Positions 4,033-54,480 of a stretch of DNA of 64,000 bases are shown here, one piece after another. Origin of the DNA: Flavonifractor sp. An10. GTDB lineage: Bacteria > Bacillota > Clostridia > Oscillospirales > Oscillospiraceae. Each line of letters begins with the position of its first letter. The first letter of the stretch is position 1. The notes beneath the pieces are model-generated. The model was given only the letters and a program-made list of their open reading frames with translations, had not been told where the DNA came from and ran no database searches. The position numbers and the translations under genes are program-made. Location: assembly GCF_002161215.1 (NCBI RefSeq), contig NZ_NFMB01000012.1, positions 54,352-118,351 on the forward strand. Direction: 5' to 3'.

Positions 4033-4111
4033 CTACGCCCTCCCGAACCGCTTCTCCAGCTGCTGGCGGGTCAGCTCTATCGCCACCGGCCTGCCATGGG
4101 GACAGTATTTG
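4033..4111 (-). repeat. Duplicated 3' end of mutL (downstream copy)
   Basis: This 79-bp segment repeats the last 79 bp of mutL (4363-4441), including a stop codon (TAG here, TAA in the gene). There are seven differences and all are synonymous, so both copies encode the same last 25 residues, ending EKRFGRA and containing the CPHGRP metal-site motif. It lies beyond the mutL stop and is not in an obvious translated frame of its own. Confidence 0.9.
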
Positions 4112-4362
4112 CTCCCCGGCGGTCAGGCCCGCCGGGGGCCCCAAATATTTTTGCATCCTCGGCCGGAGTGAATCCGGCCTGCGGCAAGGTTTTGCTCCGC
4201 AAAACGCTTGGACGCGCCAAAGGCGCGATGCGCGGTCAAATGCGGTCAGGCCCGCCGGGGCCCCAAATATTTCTGCATCCTCGGGGCAAATGAATTGCCC
4301 CTGCGGCAAGGTTTTGCTCCGCAAAACGCTTGGACGCGCCAAAGGCGCGATGCGCGGTCAAA
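4112..4362 (-). mobile_element. Gene-3'-end-associated multi-hairpin element at mutL (two units)
   Basis: Between the two mutL ends lie two tandem ~120-bp units. In the gene's direction each unit has a copy of TTTGACCGCGC (inverted copy of mutL 4437-4448), hairpin GCGCC-TTT-GGCGC, a GTCCAAGC spacer, hairpin GTTTTGC-GGA-GCAAAAC, then a stem with a TTCAN loop and a GC-rich terminal hairpin. The two units differ in the TTCAN stem (GGGGCAA/TTGCCCC versus GGCCGGA/TCCGGCC), a compensatory change. The same architecture occurs at xpt and aspS. Confidence 0.8.
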
Positions 4363-6420
4363 TTATGCTCTCCCGAACCGCTTCTCCAGCTGCTGCCGGG
4401 TCAATTCTATCGCCACCGGCCTGCCGTGGGGACAGTATTTGACCGCGCCGGACATGACGGCCTCGGCCACCTTGTACAGCTCGCCGGGGCTGTTCTTCTG
4501 TCCGCCCTTGATGGCCGCCTTGCAGGCCATGGTGTGGAGCAGGGCGTCCCGGGCGGCGTCCGGATCGGCGGAGCCGCCGGTGAGCAGCTTTCCCGCCAGC
4601 TCCCCCAGCACGTCGGGGATCTCCCCGGCGGCCACGTCGCTGGGGGCGGCCCGGACGATCAGCGTCCCGCCGCCGAAGTCCTCCGCCTCAAAGCCGAACC
4701 GCTCCAGCAGGGGCAGCTGGGCCAGCAGCGCCGCCCCCTCCTCCGCCGGCGGGGTGAACACCACCGGCTCCAGCAGGGCCTGCACCATGGGCTGGTAGCC
4801 CTCGGCCTTCAGGCGGTCGAAGTTGAGCCGCTCGTGGGCGGCGTGCTTGTCGATGAAGAGCACCTTGTCCCCCTGCTCCACGATGATGTAGGTGTTCAGC
4901 ACCTCCCCCGCCATGCGCCAAGGCTCGGGCTCGGCGGCGGGTTCCGGCTCAGGGGCGGGGGCGGGCACGCTCCCCTCGTCCGGGGCCGCGCTTTGGGCCG
5001 GGGCGGCCCCTGCCGGGGAATCGGGTGCATCCTCCTGCTGTAGGGGCCGGACATCTGGCCGGCCCGCCGCCGGGGGCGCCGGTTTCGCCGGGGGCGCGGT
5101 GAAGTCGCGGAGGGGCAGGGCCTCCTGAACGGGGGAACGGCGCGCCGGGGTCGTCGCGCCCCACGCCGGGCCGCCGAGGGCGGCGGCCCCGGACGGGGAA
5201 TCGGCCGCGTCCTCCCGCTGCAGGGGCCGGACACCCGGCCGGCCCGCCGCTTCGGCCGCCGGTTTCGCCGGGGGCGCGGTGAAATCGCGAAGGGGCAGGG
5301 CCTCCTGGACGGGGGAACGGCGCGCCGGGGTCGTCGCGCCCCACGCCGGGCCGCCGCCCTCCGCAGACAGGGTTGACACAGGGCGCGCCGGGGCCGGTTT
5401 CCCGTCGTCCAGGGTGAGGGCGGGCCGGGTGTGATCCCCCTCCAGGGTGGACTTGACGGCGTAGTACACCGCGTCAAAGACCTTCTTGTCGCTGCCGAAC
5501 TTGACCTCCTGCTTGGTGGGGTGGACGTTCACGTCCACGGCGTTGAGCTTGGTCTGCAAATGGAGCACGCAGCCGGGGAACCTGCCCACCATCTTCTGGT
5601 TGGCGTAGGCCTCCTCCAGGGCGGCCATCATGGTGCGGCTCTTGACGTAGCGGCCGTTGACAAAGAAGTGCTGGTACCCTCTCGTGCCCCGGCAGCAGGT
5701 GGGCAGGGTGACAAAGCCGGTGACCGCCATGTCCTCGCCGGAGCCCTTCACCGCCTTGTACCCCAGGGCCATGTCCCGGCCCAGCACGGCGTAGAGGGCG
5801 GACTGGAGCTGCCCGTCGCCGGGGGTGAGCAGCTCCTGCTTCCCGTCCCGGAGGAACTTGACGCTCACCTCCGGGTGGGACAGGGCCACCCGCTGCACCA
5901 TGGCGAAGCAGGCCGCCCCCTCGGCGGCGTCCTTCTTCATGAATTTCAGCCGGGCGGGGGTGTTGTAGAACAGATCCCGCACCACCAGGGTGGTGCCCCG
6001 GGGGCAGCCGGCCTCCTCCCGGCTCACCACCGTGCCCCCCTCCAGGGACAGGGCGGCGCCCAGCTCCTCCTCCGCCGTGCGGGTGAGCAGCTCGATGCGG
6101 GACACGGCGGAGATGGCCGCCAGGGCCTCCCCCCGGAAGCCCAGGGTGCCGATGGCCTCCAGATCGTACTCGGTGCTCAGCTTGCTGGTGGCGTGGCGGA
6201 GGAAGGCGGTGGGGGCCTCGTCATAGGCGATGCCGCAGCCGTTGTCGGTGACCCGGATCAGGCTCATGCCGCCGTGCTGGATCTCCACCGTCAGGGTGTC
6301 CGCCCCGGCGTCGATGGCGTTCTCCATGAGCTCCTTCACCACCGACGCGGGGCGCTCCACCACCTCGCCGGCGGCGATCAGATCCGCCACATGGGGGTCA
6401 AGTTGTTGGATGTGGGGCAT
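4363..6420 (-). CDS. mutL: DNA mismatch repair protein MutL (endonuclease type)
   Basis: 685 aa. The GHKL ATPase domain (1-330) has ELMENAIDAGA, DNGCGI and GFRGEAL. The C-terminal dimerisation/nuclease domain (about 490-685) has DKHAAHERLNFD, a variant of the DQHAxxExxxxE nuclease motif with Gln to Lys and final Glu to Asp, plus ACKAAIKGG and CPHGRP. MutL couples MutS mismatch recognition to strand nicking. The linker (about 345-480) is unusual: two 60-residue in-frame tandem repeats containing the window's intergenic palindromes, read as WGATTPARR and GRPxVRPLQ. The last 79 bp are duplicated downstream. The ATG at 6420 begins MPHIQQLDPHVADLIAAGEVVERP, the normal family start. Confidence 0.97.
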   Translation of the reverse strand: MPHIQQLDPHVADLIAAGEVVERPASVVKELMENAIDAGADTLTVEIQHGGMSLIRVTDNGCGIAYDEAPTAFLRHATSKLSTEYDLEAIGTLGFRGEALAAISAVSRIELLTRTAEEELGAALSLEGGTVVSREEAGCPRGTTLVVRDLFYNTPARLKFMKKDAAEGAACFAMVQRVALSHPEVSVKFLRDGKQELLTPGDGQLQSALYAVLGRDMALGYKAVKGSGEDMAVTGFVTLPTCCRGTRGYQHFFVNGRYVKSRTMMAALEEAYANQKMVGRFPGCVLHLQTKLNAVDVNVHPTKQEVKFGSDKKVFDAVYYAVKSTLEGDHTRPALTLDDGKPAPARPVSTLSAEGGGPAWGATTPARRSPVQEALPLRDFTAPPAKPAAEAAGRPGVRPLQREDAADSPSGAAALGGPAWGATTPARRSPVQEALPLRDFTAPPAKPAPPAAGRPDVRPLQQEDAPDSPAGAAPAQSAAPDEGSVPAPAPEPEPAAEPEPWRMAGEVLNTYIIVEQGDKVLFIDKHAAHERLNFDRLKAEGYQPMVQALLEPVVFTPPAEEGAALLAQLPLLERFGFEAEDFGGGTLIVRAAPSDVAAGEIPDVLGELAGKLLTGGSADPDAARDALLHTMACKAAIKGGQKNSPGELYKVAEAVMSGAVKYCPHGRPVAIELTRQQLEKRFGRA
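5005..5364 (-). repeat. 180-bp in-frame tandem duplication in the mutL linker, containing REP palindromes
   Basis: Positions about 5005-5184 and 5185-5364 are a direct repeat with a period of exactly 180 bp (60 codons). Each unit contains a GGGGCCGGACA...GGCCGGCCC palindrome and a GGCGCGCCGGGGTCGTCGCG-type palindrome identical in kind to the intergenic repeats elsewhere in the window. Reading frame is kept. Confidence 0.85.
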
Positions 6421-10071: not shown

Positions 10072-10938
10072 AGGGTTCCTGATGGTGCGGGTATGTCAAC
10101 TGCCAGACTCGTAGGGGCGGATATCATCCGCCCGTTTTCCCCGGAACCGCCGATCCGTGGGGCGCGACGACTCGGCGCGCCGTACGTCTGGCGGGATACA
10201 AAAATTGTCCCGAATCAATCCGTAGGGCCGCCATACATGGCGGCCGTCTGTAGGGCGCGGCATCCCTGACGCGCCGCTCGATTACCGGGGGCTCCCCCGG
10301 GGAACGCGCCTACGCGGCGGGCGCCCCCATTTCTTCCCGAAGAAATGGGGGGAAAGAAGGGCCGGGGGGCTTCGCCCACCCTGGCCCCCCAATACGGGGG
10401 CTCATGGCGGCGGTGGGCTGTACGGACAGGGCAAAAACCAACCACGCATTGCCGCAAGTTTTCCCGGCAGTTTTGTCATAGGCGCTGCCGCGCCTTGGGT
10501 GGCACGCATCGGGATTACCTTGCAGGCCCTGACAACGGTTGCGTTGTACCGGCCTGGCCCGCCGGGCCGCCGTCGGTGCCTTGCCCCCGAAAAACCGGGG
10601 CGCTTGCGGTGGCGTTCGAGCGGCGGAGGCGTTACGAAGTAAGCCTTCGCCGCCGGTAAGCTACCTGTAGAACAGCTCCGGGGGGTACATCCAATAGGGG
10701 GGAGCCGCAGCTCCCCCCTGATTGGTCGTTTCAAGGGGTGGGTGCAGGGAGGGGGAAATCGAAATCCCCCTCCCTGCCCTTTCTTTCCCCCCACTTTCTT
10801 TGGAAAGAAAGTGGGGCCGCCGGAGGCCGGGCCTCCTTTGGCCGGGCGACCACAGGTCGCCCCTACGGACGGCGCGCCGGGGTCGTCGCGCCCCACGGAT
10901 TGGTGGTTCCGGGGAAAGCGGGCGGATGATATCCGCCC
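10072..10938. repeat. Repeat island: REP palindromes plus composite module
   Basis: No gene is supported in this 0.87-kb gap. It contains REP palindromes at about 10109 (GGCGGATATCATCCGCC), 10155 (GGCGCGACGACTCGGCGCGCC type), 10221 (GGCCGCCATACATGGCGGCC type), 10250, 10851, 10875 and 10919. It also holds one plus-oriented copy of the long composite module (10318-10620: a CCCCATTTCTT hairpin, GGCGGCGGTGGGCTGTAC, GCACGCATCGGGATTACC and TGGCCCGCCGGGCC). An extension at 10620-10820 (AAGCCTTCGCCGCC, AACGACCAATCAGGGG) recurs inverted at 40745-40915. Confidence 0.8.
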
Positions 10939-14869: not shown

Positions 14870-15627
14870 GGTCAAGTAATATTGGGGTGTACCCCCAGGA
14901 GATCCCCGGCGGACAGGCGGCGGGGGCAAGCCCCCGCCCTACAGAACAGGGGAATGATAGGGGCCCCGGCAGGCGCACCGGCTCTCCGAGCCCTACGCAT
15001 ACCCGCGGCGACCGCCTTGGTATTTCAGGGGCATGGCACCGATGGCGGCCCGGCGGGCGCAGCCGGTACAGCGCAGCCGCTCTCAGGGCCTGCGGGGTAA
15101 CCGCGATGCGTGCCGCCCGAGGCGCGGCGTCGTCGGCCCAAGCTACGGATCGTTCGCTTTCGGGCAGGCCCGAAAGCTCATTCCCTCCGCTGGGCCTCCT
15201 CTCCCCACCGAACCCGCTGCGCAGCCGTTGGCGGCTTTGCCGCCTTACGGATGCGGCGTGCCCCTTGCGGGTACTTCGCTGGGCTTCGGCGGGGCCCCAG
15301 TTACCGCAAGCGCCAGCCAATGGGGCAGGCGGCAATGCGCGGTCGGTTTACGCCCTGTCCGTACAGCCCACCGCCGCCGTGAGCCCCGGGTCCAGGGCCC
15401 GCAGGTCCTGGTGGTTTTCCCACCGCTTTTGACAGCAAAAGCGGTGCCCCGGCCGGGCAGGCCCGCGCCCGCGCAGGCGCGTCCCCCGGGGGATATCCCG
15501 ATGGACATCGGGCGACCACAGGTCGCCCCTACAGGCGGTCAAAGTCTTACCCTGGCAAATCGCGGCAGATTACGGGCCTGGCGGTTGTCATACCGCCCCG
15601 CGGGCGGCGCGTCAGGGATGCCGCGCC
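14870..15627. repeat. Repeat island upstream of lepA
   Basis: No supported gene in about 0.76 kb. It includes a GGCGGGGGCAAGCCCCCGCC palindrome (14917-14942), a minus-oriented composite module (15025-15120 and 15305-15430) interrupted by the second module (AAGCTCATTCCCTCCGCTGG, 15130-15300), a GGCGACCACAGGTCGCC palindrome (15507-15527) and the GGCGCGTCAGGGATGCCGCG repeat at 15605. Confidence 0.75.
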
Positions 15628-20766: not shown

Positions 20767-21779
20767 GGCGCCGGGGGTACCCCGGTAAACGAACGGCGCG
20801 CCGGGTCGTACCCCAGGGCACCTTCTCTTGCCCCGTTGGGGCAATTCACCTTGTCGCGCCCCACGGGGCCAGTGGTTGCGGGGGCAAACGGGCGGCGCGC
20901 CGGGTCGTACCCCAGGGCACCTTCTCTTGCCCCGTTGGGGCAATTCACCTTGTCGCGCCCCACGGGGCCAGCGGCTGCGGGGACAAGCGGGCGGATGATA
21001 TCCGCCCCTACATAGTGAGCAGTTACCCGCCGGTTGCGAGGGGCACCCCGGCCCTTCGGCGGCATGGCACCGACGGCGGCCCGGCGGGCCAGGCCGGTAC
21101 AGCGCAACCACTTCCAGGGCTTGCGGGGTAATCCCGATGCGGGCCACCCAAGGCGCGGCAGCGCCTGTAACGAAGCCAAAAAAGGAACCGGGCGTGGATG
21201 CACGCCCGGTTCTTGCTTTGTCTGTACAGCTTTCCGCCGCCATGAACCCCCGTATTGGGGGATCCAGGGTGGGCGGAGCCCCCCGGCCCTTCTTTCCCCC
21301 CATTTCTTCGGGAAGAAATGGGGGCGCCCGCCGCGCAGGCGTGCCACCCGGGGAGTACCCCGGCAAATAACGGCGGGGGCAAGCCCCCGCCCTACAGTGC
21401 ATGGCAATTTCCGCGCCAGCCGGGCTTTTACCAGACGGGCGACCACAGGTCGCCCCTACATCGTCGGCCCAAGCTGCGGATCATTCGCTTCCGCGTAAAC
21501 GCGAAAGCTCATTCCCTCCGCTGGGCCTCCTTCTCCCCACGCCGACCACTTCGTTGAGTCGCCGCGGGGGCCCCATTGGGTGCGCCGGGTCGTCGCGCCC
21601 CACAGATGGGGCGCCCGCCGCGCAGGCATCCGGGAACCCCTCATCCGCCCCAGTGCGCGCACTGGGGCACCTTCCCCCCAGCGGGGGGAAGGCTCCGGGC
21701 GCGCGATGCGCGCCCCCAAGGGACACGCTCGTTTCAGGACAAAAAAGTGCGCCGCCCGGGATACGGGCGGCGCTTGTGT
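20767..21779. repeat. Repeat island with a nested short insertion
   Basis: No supported gene in 1.0 kb. Two direct copies of a unit (about 20795-20885 and 20889-20980) contain the GGCGCGCCGGGTCG/TCGCGCCCC palindrome interrupted by the same ~45-bp insert. Then come GGCGGATGATATCCGCC (20991-21007), a minus-oriented composite module (21055-21340), GGCGGGGGCAAGCCCCCGCC (21371), GGCGACCACAGGTCGCC (21438), the AAGCTCATTCCC module (21460-21600) and a GGGGCACCTTCCCCCCAGCG-type unit (21650-21705). Confidence 0.75.
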
Positions 21780-26879: not shown

Positions 26880-27723
26880 CTCTATTCCAAACGGCTGCCC
26901 GCGCGGGGGACGACTGTCCCCGCCCGTGGTGGACGCCAAATCATCCGCTCATCACGGAGGATGCCCTCCGCCTGCGGCAGCCGGTCTTGCTTATGTCAGT
27001 CAGTATATCCGTGCGGGAAACCATTGCCGGGCCCGTAGGGGCGGATATCATCCGCCCGTTCGCCTCTGCAACCGTCGGCTCCGTGGGGCGCGACGACTCG
27101 GCGCGCCGTCCGCAGGGGCGACCTGTGGTCGCCCGCTCATAGAGGATGCCCCCCTCACGGGGCGGGCCTGCCCGGCCGGGGCCCCCATTTCTTCCCGAAG
27201 AAATGGGGGGAAAGAAGGGTCAGGGGCTTCGCCCCCTGAACCCCCAAAACGGGGGCTCATGGCGGCGGTGGGCTGTGTCTGGCTTGCAAAGACCAGGCGT
27301 GCATTGCCGCCCGCCCCATTGGCTGGCGCTTGCGGTAACTGGGGCCCCCGCCGAAGCCCAGCGAAGCGGGTTCGGTGGGGAGAGGAGGCCCAGCGGAGGG
27401 AATGAGCTTTCGGGCCTGCCCGGAAGCGAACGATCCGTAGCTTGGGCCGACGACGCCGCGCCCCGGGCGGCACGCATCGGGGTTACCCTGCAAGCCCTGA
27501 AAGCTGCTGCGCTGTACCAACTTGGCCCGCCGGGCCGCCGTCGGTGCTGTGCCTCTGAAATATCAAGGAAGTCGTGGCAACTGTCCGTGGGGCGCGACGA
27601 CCCGGCGCGCCCTCGGGGGTTCCCCGGCAGACAGGCGATCAAAGCCTTACTCTGACAAATCGCGGGCGGATGATATCCGCCCCTACGGGCACGACGGTTA
27701 CGGCACCCGGCCGGGCAGGCCAC
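26880..27723. repeat. Repeat island between xpt and the BMP operon
   Basis: About 0.85 kb without a supported gene. It holds GGCGGATATCATCCGCC (27040), the GGCGCGACGACTCGGCGCGCC-type palindrome (27086), GGCGACCTGTGGTCGCC (27117), a plus-oriented composite module (27160-27570) with the AAGCTCATTCCC module inserted in inverted form (27330-27460), and further palindromes at 27590 and 27665. Confidence 0.75.
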
Positions 27724-27778
27724 TCAGCAGAACTCCACGCCGCCCTCCACGCTCATGGACTTGATGCGGGCCAGGGAC
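27724..27778 (-). repeat. Duplicated 3' end of xpt (downstream copy)
   Basis: This 55-bp segment repeats the last 55 bp of xpt (27957-28011) with three differences: TGA for TAA, TGC for TGT (silent) and one Asp-to-Gly change. It encodes the same ending ARIKSMSVExGVEFC plus stop. Confidence 0.9.
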
Positions 27779-27956
27779 GTCCCAAAGCGGCCCGCCGCTT
27801 TGGGAACCCAACTTCCTTTTCGCGCTGGGGCAACTGAATTGCCCCAGCGCCGAGGTTTTGGCCCAGGGGCCAAAACGCTCGTACGGCGCGGGCGCCGCCC
27901 CGCTTCGCGGGGCCCCGTGGAGTCCCTGGCCAATCAGCCGGGTGCAATGGGGCGCC
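27779..27956 (-). mobile_element. Gene-3'-end-associated multi-hairpin element at xpt
   Basis: In the direction of xpt the order is: 25 nt, GGCCAGGGACTCCAC (inverted copy of xpt 28002-28016), hairpin GCCCCGC-GAA-GCGGGGC, hairpin GGCGC-CC-GCGCC, spacer GTACGAGC, hairpin GTTTTGGCC-CCTG-GGCCAAAAC, CTCGGCGC, hairpin TGGGGCAA-TTCAG-TTGCCCCA, then a terminal palindrome TCCCAAAGCGGC/GCCGCTTTGGGA and the duplicated gene end. It is related to the elements at mutL and aspS by conserved spacers and loop with covarying stems. Confidence 0.8.
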
Positions 27957-28529
27957 TTAACAGAACTCCACGCCGTCCTCCACGCTCATGGACTTGATGC
28001 GGGCCAGGGACTCCACCCGCACGCCCATGCCGCGGATGAGGTCGCCGCCGGGCTGGAAGGCCTTCTCCACGGCAATGCCGGCCCCCACCAGGGTGGCGCC
28101 GGCGTCCCGCACCAGGTTGATCAGGCCCTGCAGGGCGCTGCCGTTGGCCAGGAAGTCGTCGATGAGGAGCACCCGGTCGGAGGGCAGCAGGAACTCCTTG
28201 GACACGATGATGTCGTACACCTTGCCGTGGGTGAAGGACTCCACCTTGGAGGTGTACACGTCCCCGGCGATGTTCTTGGTCTTGTTCTTCTTGGCGAAAA
28301 TCACCGGACAATCAAAAAACTGCGCAGTTACGCACGCGATCCCGATCCCCGATGCTTCGATGGTCAAAATCTTGGTAACTCCGCAGTCTCCGAACAGGCG
28401 CAGGAACTCTTTCCCCATCTCCTGAAACAGCTTCACATCCATCTGATGGTTCAGGAAGCTGTCCACCTTCAGCACGCCGCCCTCCCGGATCTTGCCATGG
28501 GTGCGGATGCGCTCCTCCAGCAGCTTCAT
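27957..28529 (-). CDS. xpt: Xanthine phosphoribosyltransferase
   Basis: 190 aa, the standard length. The PRPP-binding motif is VLLIDDFLANGSALQGL. Xpt-specific segments are MKLLEERIRTHGKI, FLNHQMD and PVIFAKKNKTKNI. It converts xanthine and PRPP to XMP, salvaging imported purines and matching the BMP importer next door. No purine-riboswitch core is visible in the leader; a promoter is. The 3' end is duplicated 230 bp downstream. Confidence 0.96.
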   Translation of the reverse strand: MKLLEERIRTHGKIREGGVLKVDSFLNHQMDVKLFQEMGKEFLRLFGDCGVTKILTIEASGIGIACVTAQFFDCPVIFAKKNKTKNIAGDVYTSKVESFTHGKVYDIIVSKEFLLPSDRVLLIDDFLANGSALQGLINLVRDAGATLVGAGIAVEKAFQPGGDLIRGMGVRVESLARIKSMSVEDGVEFC

Positions 28530-40699: not shown

Positions 40700-41440
40700 C
40701 GGGCCTGCCCGGCCGGGGCCCCGCTTTTGATGTCAAAAGCGGGGGGAAAACCAGCAGGGAGGGGGATTTCGATTTCCCCCTCCCTGCACCCTCCCCTTAA
40801 AACGACCAATCAGGGGGGCCTCGGCCCCCCTATTGGATGTACCCCCCAGAGCTGTCCTACAGGTAACTTTCTGGCGGCGAAGGCTTACTTCGTAACGCCT
40901 CCGCCGCTCGAACACTACCGCAAGTGCCCCGGTATTTCAGAGGCATGGCACCGACGGCGGCCCGGCGGGCCAAGCCGGTACAGCGAAACCACTCCCAGGG
41001 CTTGCAGGGTAACCCCGATGCGTGCCGCCCGAGGCGCGGCAGCGCCTGTGACATAAATGCCAAGGGCACGGGCGGCAATGCACGGCCGGTCTCTGCTCTG
41101 TCCGTACAGCCCACCGCCGCCATTAGCCCCCGTTTGGGGGGGCGCCGGGGGCACACCCCCGGCCCCTTCTTTCCCCCCATTTCTTTGGGAAGAAATGGGG
41201 GCGCCCGCCGCGTCGGAGGCGCCGGGGGCGCTTCCGATAGAAATCCAGCGAAGCCACCTTCAAAAAAGCGGCGCGTCCCTCGGGGGGAGCCCCCGGTAAT
41301 CGAGCGGCGCGCCGAGTCGTCGCGCCCCACGAAGAAGGAGATCCCCAATGTCCAGCGGGCGACCACAGGTCGCCCCTACAGAATATAGCGTTAGCGGCAG
41401 TCACCCAATTATCAATTATCAATTATCAATTCTATAAGAG
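40700..41440. repeat. Repeat island between the T-box terminator and hisS
   Basis: A minus-oriented composite module (40920-41210) with its extension (40740-40915: TCAAAAGCGGGG hairpin, CAGGGAGGGGGATTTCGATT region, AACGACCAATCAGGGG), then the GGCGCGCCGAGTCGTCGCGC palindrome (41303), GGCGACCACAGGTCGCC (41358) and CAATTATCAATT repeats next to the hisS ribosome site. No gene is supported. Confidence 0.8.
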
Positions 41441-44190: not shown

Positions 44191-45990
44191 ATGGAAAACA
44201 TGCGCACACACTACCGCACCCACACCTGCGGGGAGCTCCGCATGGAGCACGTGGGCCAGACCGTCACCCTGGCGGGCTTTTTGGAGAACGTCCGGGAGGT
44301 GGGCCAGAACTTCGCCTTCGCGGTGCTGCGGGACTTCTACGGCGTGACCCAGGTGGTGATTGAGACCGAGGACATGTGGAAGGCCTTCAAGGGCCTGAAC
44401 AAGGAGTCCACGGTGCAGATCACCGGCGTGGTGCGGGAGCGGGACAGCAAGAACCCCAAGCTGCCCACCGGCGACATCGAGGTGGTGCCCCAGGCGGTGG
44501 AGGTGCTGGGCCGCTGCCGCCACAACGAGCTGCCCTTCCAGGTGAACCGCAGCCGGGAGGCCGACGAGTCCGCCCGGCTGAAGTACCGCTATCTGGATCT
44601 CCGCAACCCGGCGGTGAAGAACAACATTATCCTGCGCTGCCAGGTGGTGGCCGCCCTGCGCAAGGCCATGATCGACCACGGCTTCCTGGAGATCACCACC
44701 CCCATCCTCACCGCCTCCTCCCCCGAGGGCGCCCGGGACTACCTGGTGCCCAGCCGCAAGCACCCCGGCAAGTTCTACGCCCTGCCCCAGGCCCCCCAGC
44801 AGTTCAAGCAGCTGCTGATGGCCTCCGGCTTCGACAAGTACTTCCAGATTGCCCCCTGCTTCCGGGACGAGGACGCCCGGGGCGACCGCTCCCCCGGCGA
44901 GTTCTACCAGCTGGACATGGAGATGGCCTTCGCCGACCAGGAGGACGTGTTCGCCGTCCTGGAGGACGTGCTGCCCCCCATCTTCGCCCAGTACGGCACC
45001 TACAACGTGGCCTCTGAGGCCCCCTTCAAGCGCATCTCCTACCTGGAGGCCATGGACAAGTACGGCTCCGACAAGCCCGACCTGCGCATCGACCTGGTGG
45101 TGCGGGACGCCACCGATGTGCTGGGCGGCTGCGGCTTCGGGCCCTTTGAGGGCAACACCGTCAAGGCCGTGGTGGTCACCGGCTTCGAGGGCACCCGCAA
45201 GCAGATCGACAAGCTGTGCGCCGACGTGGAGGTGCAGGCCGGCGAGAAGGCCTACTGGTTCCGCTATGACGAGAACGGCGAGATCGTGGGCGGCATCGCC
45301 AAGTTTGTCCAGCCCGTCAAAGACCAGGTGGTGGCCGCCCTGGGGCTGGAGAAGGGCTGCTTCGTGGGACTGACCGCCGGCAAGCTGCTTGCCGCCCAGA
45401 AGACCGCCGGCGTGCTGCGCAATAAGCTGGGCGCCTTCTGCCCCGCCCACATGGACAGGGAGCGGTACGAGTTCTGCTGGATCGTGGACTTCCCCATGTA
45501 CGAGATCGGCGAGGAGTCCGGCGAGCTGGAGTTCTGCCACAACCCCTTCTCCATGCCCAACGGCGGGCTGGAGATCCTGAAAAAGGCCGCCGCCGGCGAG
45601 GTGGATCCCCTGACCATCACCGCCTACCAGTACGACCTGGTGTGCAACGGCGTGGAGCTGTCCTCCGGCGCGGTGCGGAACCACGACCCGGAGATCATGA
45701 TCGAGGCCTTCCAGCTGGTGCGGCTGGGCGAGGACGACGTGAAGGCCAAGTTCCCCGCCATGTACAATGCCTTCACCTACGGCGCACCCCCCCACGCGGG
45801 CATCGCCCCCGGCGTGGATCGGATGGTGATGCTGCTGGCCGGCGAGGAGTCCATCCGGGAGATCATCCCCTTCCCCATGAACAAGAACGCCCAGGATCTC
45901 ATGATGGGTGCCCCCTCCTTCGTGGATCCCAAGCAGCTGGACGAGTTGAACATTGTCTGTACCAAGAAGGAGGAGGACGAGGCGGAGTAA
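44191..45990 (+). CDS. aspS: Aspartate--tRNA ligase (bacterial type)
   Basis: 599 aa from the ATG at 44191 with GGAG upstream. OB-fold anticodon domain (1-105), class II core with FRDEDARGDRSPGEFYQLD, the bacterial GAD insertion (about 290-415) and motif 3 GIAPGVDRMVMLLAGEESI. The acidic C-terminal tail ends EEDEAE. Its last 60 bp occur again 178 bp downstream. Confidence 0.97.
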   Translation: MENMRTHYRTHTCGELRMEHVGQTVTLAGFLENVREVGQNFAFAVLRDFYGVTQVVIETEDMWKAFKGLNKESTVQITGVVRERDSKNPKLPTGDIEVVPQAVEVLGRCRHNELPFQVNRSREADESARLKYRYLDLRNPAVKNNIILRCQVVAALRKAMIDHGFLEITTPILTASSPEGARDYLVPSRKHPGKFYALPQAPQQFKQLLMASGFDKYFQIAPCFRDEDARGDRSPGEFYQLDMEMAFADQEDVFAVLEDVLPPIFAQYGTYNVASEAPFKRISYLEAMDKYGSDKPDLRIDLVVRDATDVLGGCGFGPFEGNTVKAVVVTGFEGTRKQIDKLCADVEVQAGEKAYWFRYDENGEIVGGIAKFVQPVKDQVVAALGLEKGCFVGLTAGKLLAAQKTAGVLRNKLGAFCPAHMDRERYEFCWIVDFPMYEIGEESGELEFCHNPFSMPNGGLEILKKAAAGEVDPLTITAYQYDLVCNGVELSSGAVRNHDPEIMIEAFQLVRLGEDDVKAKFPAMYNAFTYGAPPHAGIAPGVDRMVMLLAGEESIREIIPFPMNKNAQDLMMGAPSFVDPKQLDELNIVCTKKEEDEAE

Positions 45991-46168
45991 GCACCCCTCT
46001 CCCCCTGCTTGGGATCCACGGGCCCCATCGCAGATGGGGCGGCGCTTGCGCCGTTCGAGCGTTTTGCCGCAGGCAAAACCTCGGCGCAGGGGCAATTCAC
46101 TTGCCCCGAGCATGCGAAATCATCTCCCGGGGCCCCCCGCGAAATCCAGGATTTCGCGGGGGGCTCAC
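45991..46168 (+). mobile_element. Gene-3'-end-associated multi-hairpin element at aspS
   Basis: Order after the aspS stop: 14 nt, CTGCTTGGGATCCACG (46005-46020, a perfect inverted copy of aspS 45921-45936), hairpin GCCCCATC-GCA-GATGGGGC, hairpin GGCGC-TT-GCGCC, GTTCGAGC, hairpin GTTTTGCC-GCA-GGCAAAAC, CTCGGCGC, hairpin GGGGCAA-TTCAC-TTGCCCC, GAGCATGCG, a 14-bp terminal stem (CCCCCCGCGAAATC/GATTTCGCGGGGGG), then the repeated gene end. Same family as the xpt and mutL elements. Confidence 0.85.
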
Positions 46169-46228
46169 AAGCAGCTGGACGAGCTCAATATTGTGTGCAC
46201 CAAGAAGGAGGAGGACGAGGCGGAGTAA
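46169..46228 (+). repeat. Duplicated 3' end of aspS (downstream copy)
   Basis: 60 bp repeating 45931-45990 with five differences, all synonymous (TTG/CTC, AAC/AAT, GTC/GTG, TGT/TGC), and the same TAA stop. It encodes the same 19 residues KQLDELNIVCTKKEEDEAE. Confidence 0.95.
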
Positions 46229-46740: not shown

Positions 46741-47441
46741 CGCCGCAGCTGCGGTGCGCTCCCCGGGCTTTTTGGGAAAAGAAGGGGCGGGAGACGGGCG
46801 GAGTAAGCCGCGTTCCCCCGCCCCACAAACCGCCGCCGCAAATACCATGGTATTTCGGCGGCATGACACCAGCGGCGGCCCGGCGGGCCAGGCCGGTACA
46901 GCGCAGCGGCCATCAGGGCTTGCAGGGTAATCCCGATGCGTGCCGCCCGAGGCGCGGCAGCGCCTGTGACATGAGTGCCAGGAAAACAAGCGGCAATGCG
47001 CGGCTGGTCTTTGCCCTGTCTGTACAGCCCACCGCCGCCATGAGCCCCCGTACTGGGGGGTCCAGGGTGGGCGAAGCCCCCCGGCCCTTCTTTCCCCCCA
47101 TTTCTTCGGGAAGAAATGGGGGCGCCCGCCGCGTAGGCGCGTCCCACGGGGGGAGACCCCGATGAATGGTCAAAAGATGATAGGGCGCGCCGAGTCGTCG
47201 CGCCCCACGAAAGAAGCCCCCGACGTCCAGCGGGCGACCACAGGTCGCCCCTACATCGTCGGCCCAAGCTGCGGATCGTTCGCTTCCGCGTAAACGCGAA
47301 AGCTCATTCCCTCCGCTGTGCCTCCTTCTCCCCACGCCGACCACTTCGTTGGGTCGCCGCGGGGGCCCCATTGGGTGCGCCGAGTCGTCGCGCCCCACGG
47401 GCCAGTGGTTCCGGGGGCAAACGGGCGGATACGATCCGCCC
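46741..47441. repeat. Repeat island upstream (3') of aroK
   Basis: About 0.7 kb with no supported gene: a minus-oriented composite module (46845-47135), the GGCGCGCCGAGTCGTCGCGC palindrome (47186 and 47376), GGCGACCACAGGTCGCC (47235), the AAGCTCATTCCC module (47260-47370) and GGCGGATACGATCCGCC (47424). Confidence 0.75.
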
Positions 47442-53741: not shown

Positions 53742-54480
53742 GGGGCGGATATCATCCGCCCGAAGCCTTCCCCCCACAGGGGGGAAGGTGCCCCAGTGCG
53801 CGCACTGGGGCGGATGAGGGGTTCCACGTTCTCACGCCGTGGTGCCCCCCCTCGCAGGGCGGGCCTGCCCGGCCGGGGCACCGCTTTCTTTCCAAAAGAA
53901 AGCGGTGGGAAAGAAAGGCCGGGGGGCTTCGCCCGCCCTGGCCCCCCCAGTACGGGGGTTCATGGCGGCGGTGGGCTGTACAAACAGGGCAGAGACCAGA
54001 CGTGCTTTGCCGCCCGTTTTCCTGGCGGTCTCGTTACAGGCGCTGCCGCGCCTTGGGCGGCACGCATCGGGGTTGTCCTGCAAGCCCTGAAAGTAGTTGC
54101 GCTGTACCAAGTGCGCCCGCCGGGCTGCCGCCGGTGCCATGCCGCCGAAATACCGGGGCAGTCACCGCAGCCATCCGTAGGGGCGACCTGTGGTCGCCCG
54201 CCCCGAGCCGAGGGGGCGTTACGGCGTCGGCCCAAGCTGCGGATCGTTCGCTTTGCCGCAAGCGGCAAAGCTCATTCCCGCCGCGTAGGCGCCCGTCGGA
54301 GGCCGGGCATCTTTCGGGCGGCCGCCATGTATGGCGGCCCTACGGCCTCGGGCAGAGGATATCCGCCCCCGGGGGATACCCGGTAGATGGCGAGTCGGCC
54401 AGGGAAGCCGGAGGTAGGGGCCGCCGCCCTCGGCGGCCCGTTCCGCCCCGAAAGGAGTCGCGCGGCTGTGGGGACAGGCG
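53742..54480. repeat. Repeat island between pepD and the helicase gene
   Basis: GGCGGATATCATCCGCC (53745), a CCTTCCCCCCACAGGGGGGA and GCCCCAGTGCGCGCACTGGGGC-type unit (53764-53815), a plus-oriented composite module (53875-54160), GGCGACCTGTGGTCGCC (54183), part of the AAGCTCATTCCC module (54225-54285) and GGCCGCCATGTATGGCGGCC (54320). No gene supported. Confidence 0.75.

Follow-up and report, generated by a model that had tools for sequence, protein, structure and literature searches.

A likely new kind of mobile DNA: hairpin-rich non-coding elements in the ends of conserved genes of Flavonifractor sp. An10 and its relatives

Introduction

In a 64,000-nucleotide stretch of DNA from Flavonifractor sp. 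An10, referred to throughout as the window, the gene aspS (aspartate--tRNA ligase by NCBIfam match) has two ends that are spelled differently and that stand on either side of a 178-bp insert. The locus raises the question of what this insert is, how a conserved gene came to have a second, reworded end, and what role is played by a short segment of the insert that is complementary to the gene itself. A first-pass annotation made from the letters of the window had likened this segment to a splint bridging a join in the RNA, as the internal guide of a group I intron does. Loci and genomes are designated here by L and G numbers, with G000 the genome of the window.

Anatomy of the aspS insertion

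All parts of the aspS locus lie on the forward strand. The open frame (44194–45990, listed from 44176) has its working end in the first of two copies of a 61-nt sequence that includes the stop codon (copy 1, 45930–45990; copy 2, 46168–46228); a repeat-finding run on the window returned the same repeat as 67 nt with 90% identity and a spacing of 238. The copies have 5 nucleotide differences in 4 codons (TTG/CTC, AAC/AAT, GTC/GTG and TGT/TGC), all of which are synonymous, and both keep the stop TAA, as the first-pass annotation had claimed. Copy 1 is followed by a tail that runs from the stop to the next part (45991–46004, read from the sequence), and the tails at related loci are unlike the sequence 3′ of copy 2. 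Sequence comparison also bore out the 16-nt segment (46005–46020), here termed the guide, as an exact complement of a target within aspS (45921–45936). The target does straddle the repeat start, but with that start set at 45930 it divides into 9 nt upstream and 7 nt inside, in place of the 10 and 6 nt given earlier. The guide/target pairing is perfect in the window copy and has no U-G at the junction.

The remainder of the insert is, as previously described, a series of hairpins. H1 (46023–46039; CCCCATC/GATGGGG) is preceded by a G run and is variable among copies and absent in some, and H2 (46040–46053; CGGCGC/GCGCCG) is seen both in the sequence and in the alignment of copies. Compensatory changes are present in H3 (46056–46083), which has one bulged C, and in H4 (46089–46107), which has an apical loop A[TTCAY]T. 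A second G run and the terminal hairpin H5 (46129–46164; inverted repeat 46132–46147/46149–46164) precede copy 2. From guide to copy 2 the aspS element measures 163 nt.

Two further elements had been claimed for the window and both are present on the reverse strand. The element behind xpt (27728–28011) consists of copy 1 (27961–28011), a core (27825–27902) and copy 2 (27728–27778), and the site behind mutL (4034–4462) holds two tandem cores (4264–4354 and 4142–4232) between copy 1 (4364–4462) and copy 2 (4034–4133). Two other kinds of repeat were observed in the window. The mutL frame holds a tandem pair of 175 nt with 91% identity (5002–5356), and a second family, made up of large dispersed repeats (100–320 nt, several copies, both orientations), occupies intergenic parts at 10282–10702, 15006–15237, 21037–21353, 27149–27619, 40918–41216, 46821–47153 and 53904–54182. 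No Rfam family matched the window at gathering scores, and a permissive search of the stretch gave weak hits that were taken for chance.

A dispersed family with a shared layout

When used as a query, the 178-bp aspS insert found 46 places in its own genome (E ≤ 10). An alignment of 29 element copies supports 18 base pairs, 10 of them with changes on both sides; 99.4% of the alignment cells are paired and the covariation score of 0.359 compares with 0.119 in shuffles (0/500 reached 0.359). The covariance-model search that had been proposed for the element was run with a model built from this alignment and returned 88 matches in G000 at E ≤ 10, of which 58 remained at E ≤ 1e-5. The first-pass annotation had held that absence of the element from other genomes would speak against its reading; at E ≤ 0.01 the model matched all 20 genomes of the genus (likely Flavonifractor) and 26/60 relatives, and an order-wide search matched 26/295 genomes at E ≤ 1e-6.

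Individual reading covered 143 distinct copies, 49 from G000 and 94 among the best matches listed for other genomes. In 119 of the 143 the element stands between repeats of one sequence, in most cases a gene end and sometimes a gene start, an arrangement shown by 3/494 windows shifted along the same loci. These flanking repeats have a median length of 71 nt (range 28–212) and a median identity of 93%, and in most loci the repeats that define the family lie ~170–300 nt apart. An automatic frame call divided the 119 loci into 89 gene ends (element sense), 21 gene starts (element antisense) and 9 unassigned, a division that errs in both directions: 10 of the 21 start-type rows are starts of truB, uvrC or lepA, but at least L150 was called start-type though it is a response-regulator end, and L073 and L169 were called end-type though they are uvrC starts. 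The gene body lies upstream of the element in 106/111 loci, an approximate count because of the open frames in GC-rich DNA.

The order of parts is gene body, copy 1, tail, guide, a GGGGCCCC-like H1, H2, H3, H4, G run, H5, copy 2 and native downstream sequence. Across the family H3 has one bulged base and H4 the loop A[TTCAY]T, and H1 or H2 is changed or absent in some copies. The unit of gene-end copy, guide and element is also found in tandem arrays. One array in G000 (L018, C11:217061–217626) has three elements and four gene ends, and its third element has a 5′ half in common with the others and a different 3′ half, as if halves had been exchanged.

By NCBIfam names the hosts include aspS, gdhA, mutL, pyruvate:ferredoxin oxidoreductase, eno, infB, gpmI, the end and also the start of lepA, the acetolactate synthase small subunit, uvrA, 3,5-diaminohexanoate dehydrogenase, xpt, uvrC, argH, formate--tetrahydrofolate ligase, truB and ssnA. 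Two response-regulator hosts scored below the cut-offs of the NCBIfam models shown, and among ten proteins of one host set, 2/10 had no NCBIfam match and 1/10 belonged to an unnamed family. The hosts are conserved genes, which would fit a homing strategy.

The gene-end form extends to other genera of the family (L336, L338, L343 and L085) and, with a diverged core, to another family, f7 (L347, L348 and L349), where the gene ends at L347 and L349 resemble what we take to be rpsI and rplL. A 1.9-Mb genome of another family, G042, carries 91 core matches, often in tandem (L084, L225 and the even-numbered loci within L225–L250); no gene-end repeat was found in the 14 G042 loci read, where the copies are core-only, and three genomes of the same genus (G066, G085 and G128) carry the gene-end form. 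Distant genera have one or two high-scoring copies each (L334 in G156, L335 in G304, L337 in G311, L340 in G165 and L341 in G072), which suggests transfer or contamination. A repeat-free form was also seen, by eye, beside tRNA-like sequences (L023, L075, L154, L163, L160, L187, L194 and L202); in these copies H1 is often GGCCTTCTGGCC-like and the last hairpin is AT-rich and terminator-like.

Guide and target

A segment on the 5′ side of the element that is complementary to the gene across the repeat start occurs in 86 of 109 repeat-bearing loci, and when targets were swapped between loci, 11/109 scored as high. Together with the 3/494 shifted windows, this rejects a chance origin of the layout and of the guide. 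The segment is 12–16 nt long and its pairing mostly spans −6 to +6..+10 around the junction, which is itself ambiguous by a few nucleotides; a GA|G preference in the target is only weak (35 representatives). Over 1001 positions of guide duplex there are 30 GU and 16 AC oppositions.

The guide changes with its gene. Among 16 sets of orthologous insertions, in each of which the guide window was fixed on one member, guides form Watson-Crick pairs with their own gene at 726/795 positions, compared to 709.6 ± 4.2 when permuted within sets (0/5000 permutations reached the observed value). Covarying guide/gene columns number 11 and occur in 9 of the 16 sets, with 5 of the 11 contributed by the three gene-start sets (truB, uvrC and lepA). 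At truB a T-A pair in L158 occupies the column of a C-G pair in L049, at the lepA start two compensated pairs distinguish L166 from L170, and at gdhA the L149 copy (G008) has A-T in place of G-C. Constraint is likewise evident at gdhA, where in the 11 genomes with both copies present and no gaps the per-site difference is 0.036 for the guide (located by a pattern written from the sequences), 0.397 for the tail, 0.181 for the element and 0.076 for the gene body.

Differences between copy 1 and copy 2 inside the target amount to 32 positions in 77 loci. Of these, 13 exchange a pair for a wobble or the reverse, 2 create A-C and 17 involve other mismatches. The predominance of wobble-type changes over A-C makes a splint-like pairing of the guide with copy 2 compatible with the data. 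The splint proposal thus survives in part: a guide that straddles the junction is general in the family and covaries with the gene, while splicing of the mRNA in the manner of a group I intron is disfavoured by antisense loci with the same features. The guide covariation, the family and its anatomy are well supported.

Coding character of the two copies

It had been reasoned that a copy 2 that freely gathered nonsynonymous changes in relatives would suggest a one-off duplication. Across 100 loci, with frames called automatically and some of them wrong (L150, L073 and L169), the two copies have 246 synonymous and 77 nonsynonymous codon differences, where random change would be expected to be 25.7% synonymous, and neutral drift of a dead copy 2 is rejected on this basis. 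The same loci contain 3 nonsense codons, 7 lost stops, 3 exchanged stops and 15 codons with gaps, and the nucleotide differences fall 50/54/253 on the three codon positions. The pattern holds at nine loci in the starts of truB, uvrC and lepA, where 28 codon differences are synonymous and 6 are nonsynonymous. Between species, third-position differences at gdhA account for 157/177 in copy 1 and 102/170 in the less biased copy 2, to which exchanges of serine codons between TCN and AGY contribute. Such switches occur between copies and between species at lepA and gdhA, and suit diverged alleles. One copy 2, at L065, has an in-frame stop.

At five loci (L064, L201, L148, L171 and L015) the aligned parts of the two coding copies show no difference, and divergence begins at or soon after the gene end. 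The stretch running from copy 1 through H5 is thus distinct from the native sequence downstream of it. A recent-looking locus, L116, is a clean long repeat (83/84 identical) with the complement beside it. Gene conversion alone is rejected as the source of the copies, as L072, L028, L176, L166 and L078 have 9–11 synonymous and 0–1 nonsynonymous differences.

Filled, empty and hybrid alleles

Comparison with relatives that lack the insert had been suggested for the aspS locus, and among 16 genomes readable there the site of the window is filled only in G000. A second aspS site carries an element in G002, G004 and G007, whereas G016, G017 and G018, which are related to them, are empty there; 12 of the 16 genomes have neither insertion. 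In G004 and G007 the terminal 24 nt of copy 1 are the same as in the empty G017, and copy 2 and the sequence that follows resemble G018 and G016. Judging from these matches, the aspS of G004 and G007 is a hybrid, like the fungal mitochondrial genes with a carried C-terminus. In G014 an antisense stretch resembling the 5′ part of the element was observed ~300 nt behind an empty aspS end (L107).

At gdhA the 20 genomes of the genus comprise 12 filled alleles, 1 cut by a contig end (G013), 2 remnants consisting of the guide and the 5′ element (G007 and G010) and 5 empty alleles. Downstream sequence is common to the filled G004 and G016 and the empty G002 and G018. In the 11-genome set, distances between elements correlate with those between downstream sequences (Mantel r = 0.36, P = 0.006), but those between gene bodies show no such correlation (r = 0.07, P = 0.34); element and gene body share their nearest relative in 6 of 11 genomes, an agreement that fits partly vertical descent. 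The two gdhA copies evolve in concert in G009 and in G015, which gene conversion would also yield. In the aspS of G002 and the gdhA of G009, a few nucleotides at the 5′ end of the complement also occur in the native junction sequence, as in end joining.

Partner enzymes and the nature of the nucleic acid

Four protein families were considered as partners of the element. Reverse transcriptase (RVT_1, PF00078) is present in only 7/20 genus genomes and is lacking in G006, which is 99% complete and has 29 element hits. The Y1 transposase (PF01797) is found in 26/60 genomes, with 12 matches in G000, and was not found in the element-rich G014, G019 and G042. IscB (PF14239) passed the cut-off in 0/60 genomes; TnpB (PF07282) did so in 12/60 and had no match in G000. 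As the presence of these genes does not track the element, all four are rejected and no partner enzyme was found among them.

The paired regions were compared for signs of RNA or of DNA. H3 and H4 contain 6 GT and 5 AC among 1875 pairs, such that wobble is hardly commoner than A-C, which is odd and unlike what is expected of an RNA. Of the 85 H5 hairpins compared, 30 have a G-T, which is confined to a single position and always has its G on the 5′ side.

Discussion

Most of the elements split a gene end from a second, often reworded copy of it and carry a segment matching their own insertion point, so that the dozens of hairpin-rich, non-coding insertions in conserved gene ends likely represent a new kind of mobile DNA. 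This view is built on an anatomy that recurs over many genes, many genomes and both orientations, on guide/target covariation, on compensatory changes in the hairpins, on the coding character of both copies, and on a site that is empty in some genomes, filled in others and reduced to a remnant in a few. The best reading, to which we assign a probability of roughly one half, is that of a non-coding mobile element that homes by complementarity and rescues the end of the gene it enters. The element would home, in alleles that lack it, to the point where the repeat begins, with the complementary segment predicted as its guide; this guide, as RNA or as single-stranded DNA, would pick the junction. 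The block of gene-end copy, tail, guide and hairpins would move as a unit, and homologous recombination with a diverged allele would place a reworded end of foreign origin upstream, with the native end remaining downstream. Sites in conserved gene ends may persist because the gene stays intact through the end brought along and because the target is alike across species. That the reworded end arose by exchange between diverged alleles is likely.

A more specific version of homing with rescue is put forward tentatively, and we would sooner bet against it than for it: an element without a protein gene, whose guided hairpin RNA or single-stranded DNA would insert into a conserved codon run near core-gene ends, bring a recoded end that saves the gene from ever being lost, and be served by a not yet recognised enzyme. 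Several observations count against homing in general. No partner enzyme was found, and the filled allele retains its own target, which any guided nuclease would need to leave uncut. Also weighing against it are the correlation of the gdhA element with its downstream sequence and not with the gene body, the shared nearest relatives there that fit partly vertical descent, the concerted copies of G009 and G015, the weaker third-position bias of copy 2, the scarcity of wobble in H3 and H4, and the fixing of guide windows on one member of each set.

The main rival, which we regard as possible but rather unlikely, is transposition by some other mechanism with a long target duplication, in which the complement is a by-product (e.g., of a template switch) without guide function, and the synonymous differences between the copies arise afterwards through interspecies recombination and gene conversion. 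Such duplication agrees with the clean repeat and adjacent complement of recent-looking copies such as L116, with the few nucleotides shared between complement and native junction in the aspS of G002 and the gdhA of G009, and with the searches for IscB and TnpB, which found no guided enzyme; it leaves unexplained both the covariation of guide and gene between orthologues and the ~11 times slower change of the guide compared to the tail at gdhA. Target-primed reverse transcription, in which a reverse transcriptase acting in trans would copy the hairpin RNA at a target opened by the guide, would produce the observed succession of parts (a target copy, the 5′ segment, the element and a second target copy) and repeats of about 60–80 nt, but the patchy occurrence of RVT_1 and its absence from G006, with its 29 element hits, make this very improbable.

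Self-splicing, in which the RNA between the junction and copy 2 is excised like an intron while the guide bridges the exons, would account for a guide that spans both sides of the junction and for a copy 2 that stays coding-like and keeps its pairing (13 wobble-type changes to 2 A-C). We nonetheless consider it quite improbable: at the truB, uvrC and lepA starts it is the gene start that is duplicated and the element is antisense, yet the geometry, the covariation and the synonymous divergence are the same. Further, in 19/89 of the automatically called gene-end loci the first stop is followed, ahead of the element, by a hairpin resembling a terminator (a count without a control), Rfam has no group I match and the copy 2 of L065 is interrupted by a stop. 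It is conceivable, though, that the sense RNA of the element itself is spliced as a step in mobility. A 3′ structure of benefit to the host (a terminator, or one serving RNA stability or regulation), held by selection with its mobility long past, would be in keeping with compensatory hairpin changes at one site, the repeat-free copies with a terminator-like last hairpin beside tRNA genes and the core-only copies of G042. As it leaves the guide covariation, the coding-like copy 2 and the empty alleles of close relatives without explanation, we give it as little credence as target-primed insertion.

Homing by complementarity invites comparison with several known systems. In group I introns and IStrons a guide pairs with the sequence on either side of a junction, and the guide described here similarly pairs across both sides, also with copy 2; unlike group I introns, the elements have no catalytic core recognisable by Rfam covariance models, have no U-G at the 5′ junction in the window copy and also lie antisense to genes. 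The OMEGA (IscB, TnpB) and bridge/seek RNA systems link mobile DNA to a guide that matches the site, whereas here an IscB or TnpB protein neither adjoins nor consistently accompanies the element, and the guide, which is an inverted copy, follows a copy of the gene end. Non-autonomous relatives of IS200/IS605, REP and MITE-like repeats are short, hairpin-rich, dispersed and non-coding, as are these elements; to our knowledge none has a site-specific complementary segment or gene-end copies, and, unlike in IS200/IS605, Y1 genes do not track the elements. The annotation had known of no family with this layout, and none was found in Rfam or in a literature search. The nearest case is that of fungal mitochondrial mobile ORFs that carry the C-terminus of a gene (Allomyces atp6; Glomus atp6, atp9, cox2 and nad3), which encode a homing endonuclease and are inferred to have been transferred from a diverged donor (PMC3630166). 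The likeness extends to a carried gene end ahead of the displaced native end, with DNA differences that are largely synonymous (PMC3630166). The elements described here, in contrast, lack a protein gene and possess a structured core and a complement of the insertion point. With 163 nt from guide to copy 2 at aspS and repeats ~170–300 nt apart, they are too short to encode a homing endonuclease.

Even if the guide should prove passive, the elements form a large repeat family that is not represented in Rfam, provides conserved genes with second ends and can mislead analyses of gene ends, synteny and recombination. If homing with gene-end rescue is true, the family would add a class of mobile DNA without a protein gene, in which complementarity determines the insertion site and the accompanying gene end protects the host gene. 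It would offer many natural pairs of target and guide with empty, filled and remnant alleles, and would predict an unrecognised guided enzyme in common gut bacteria.
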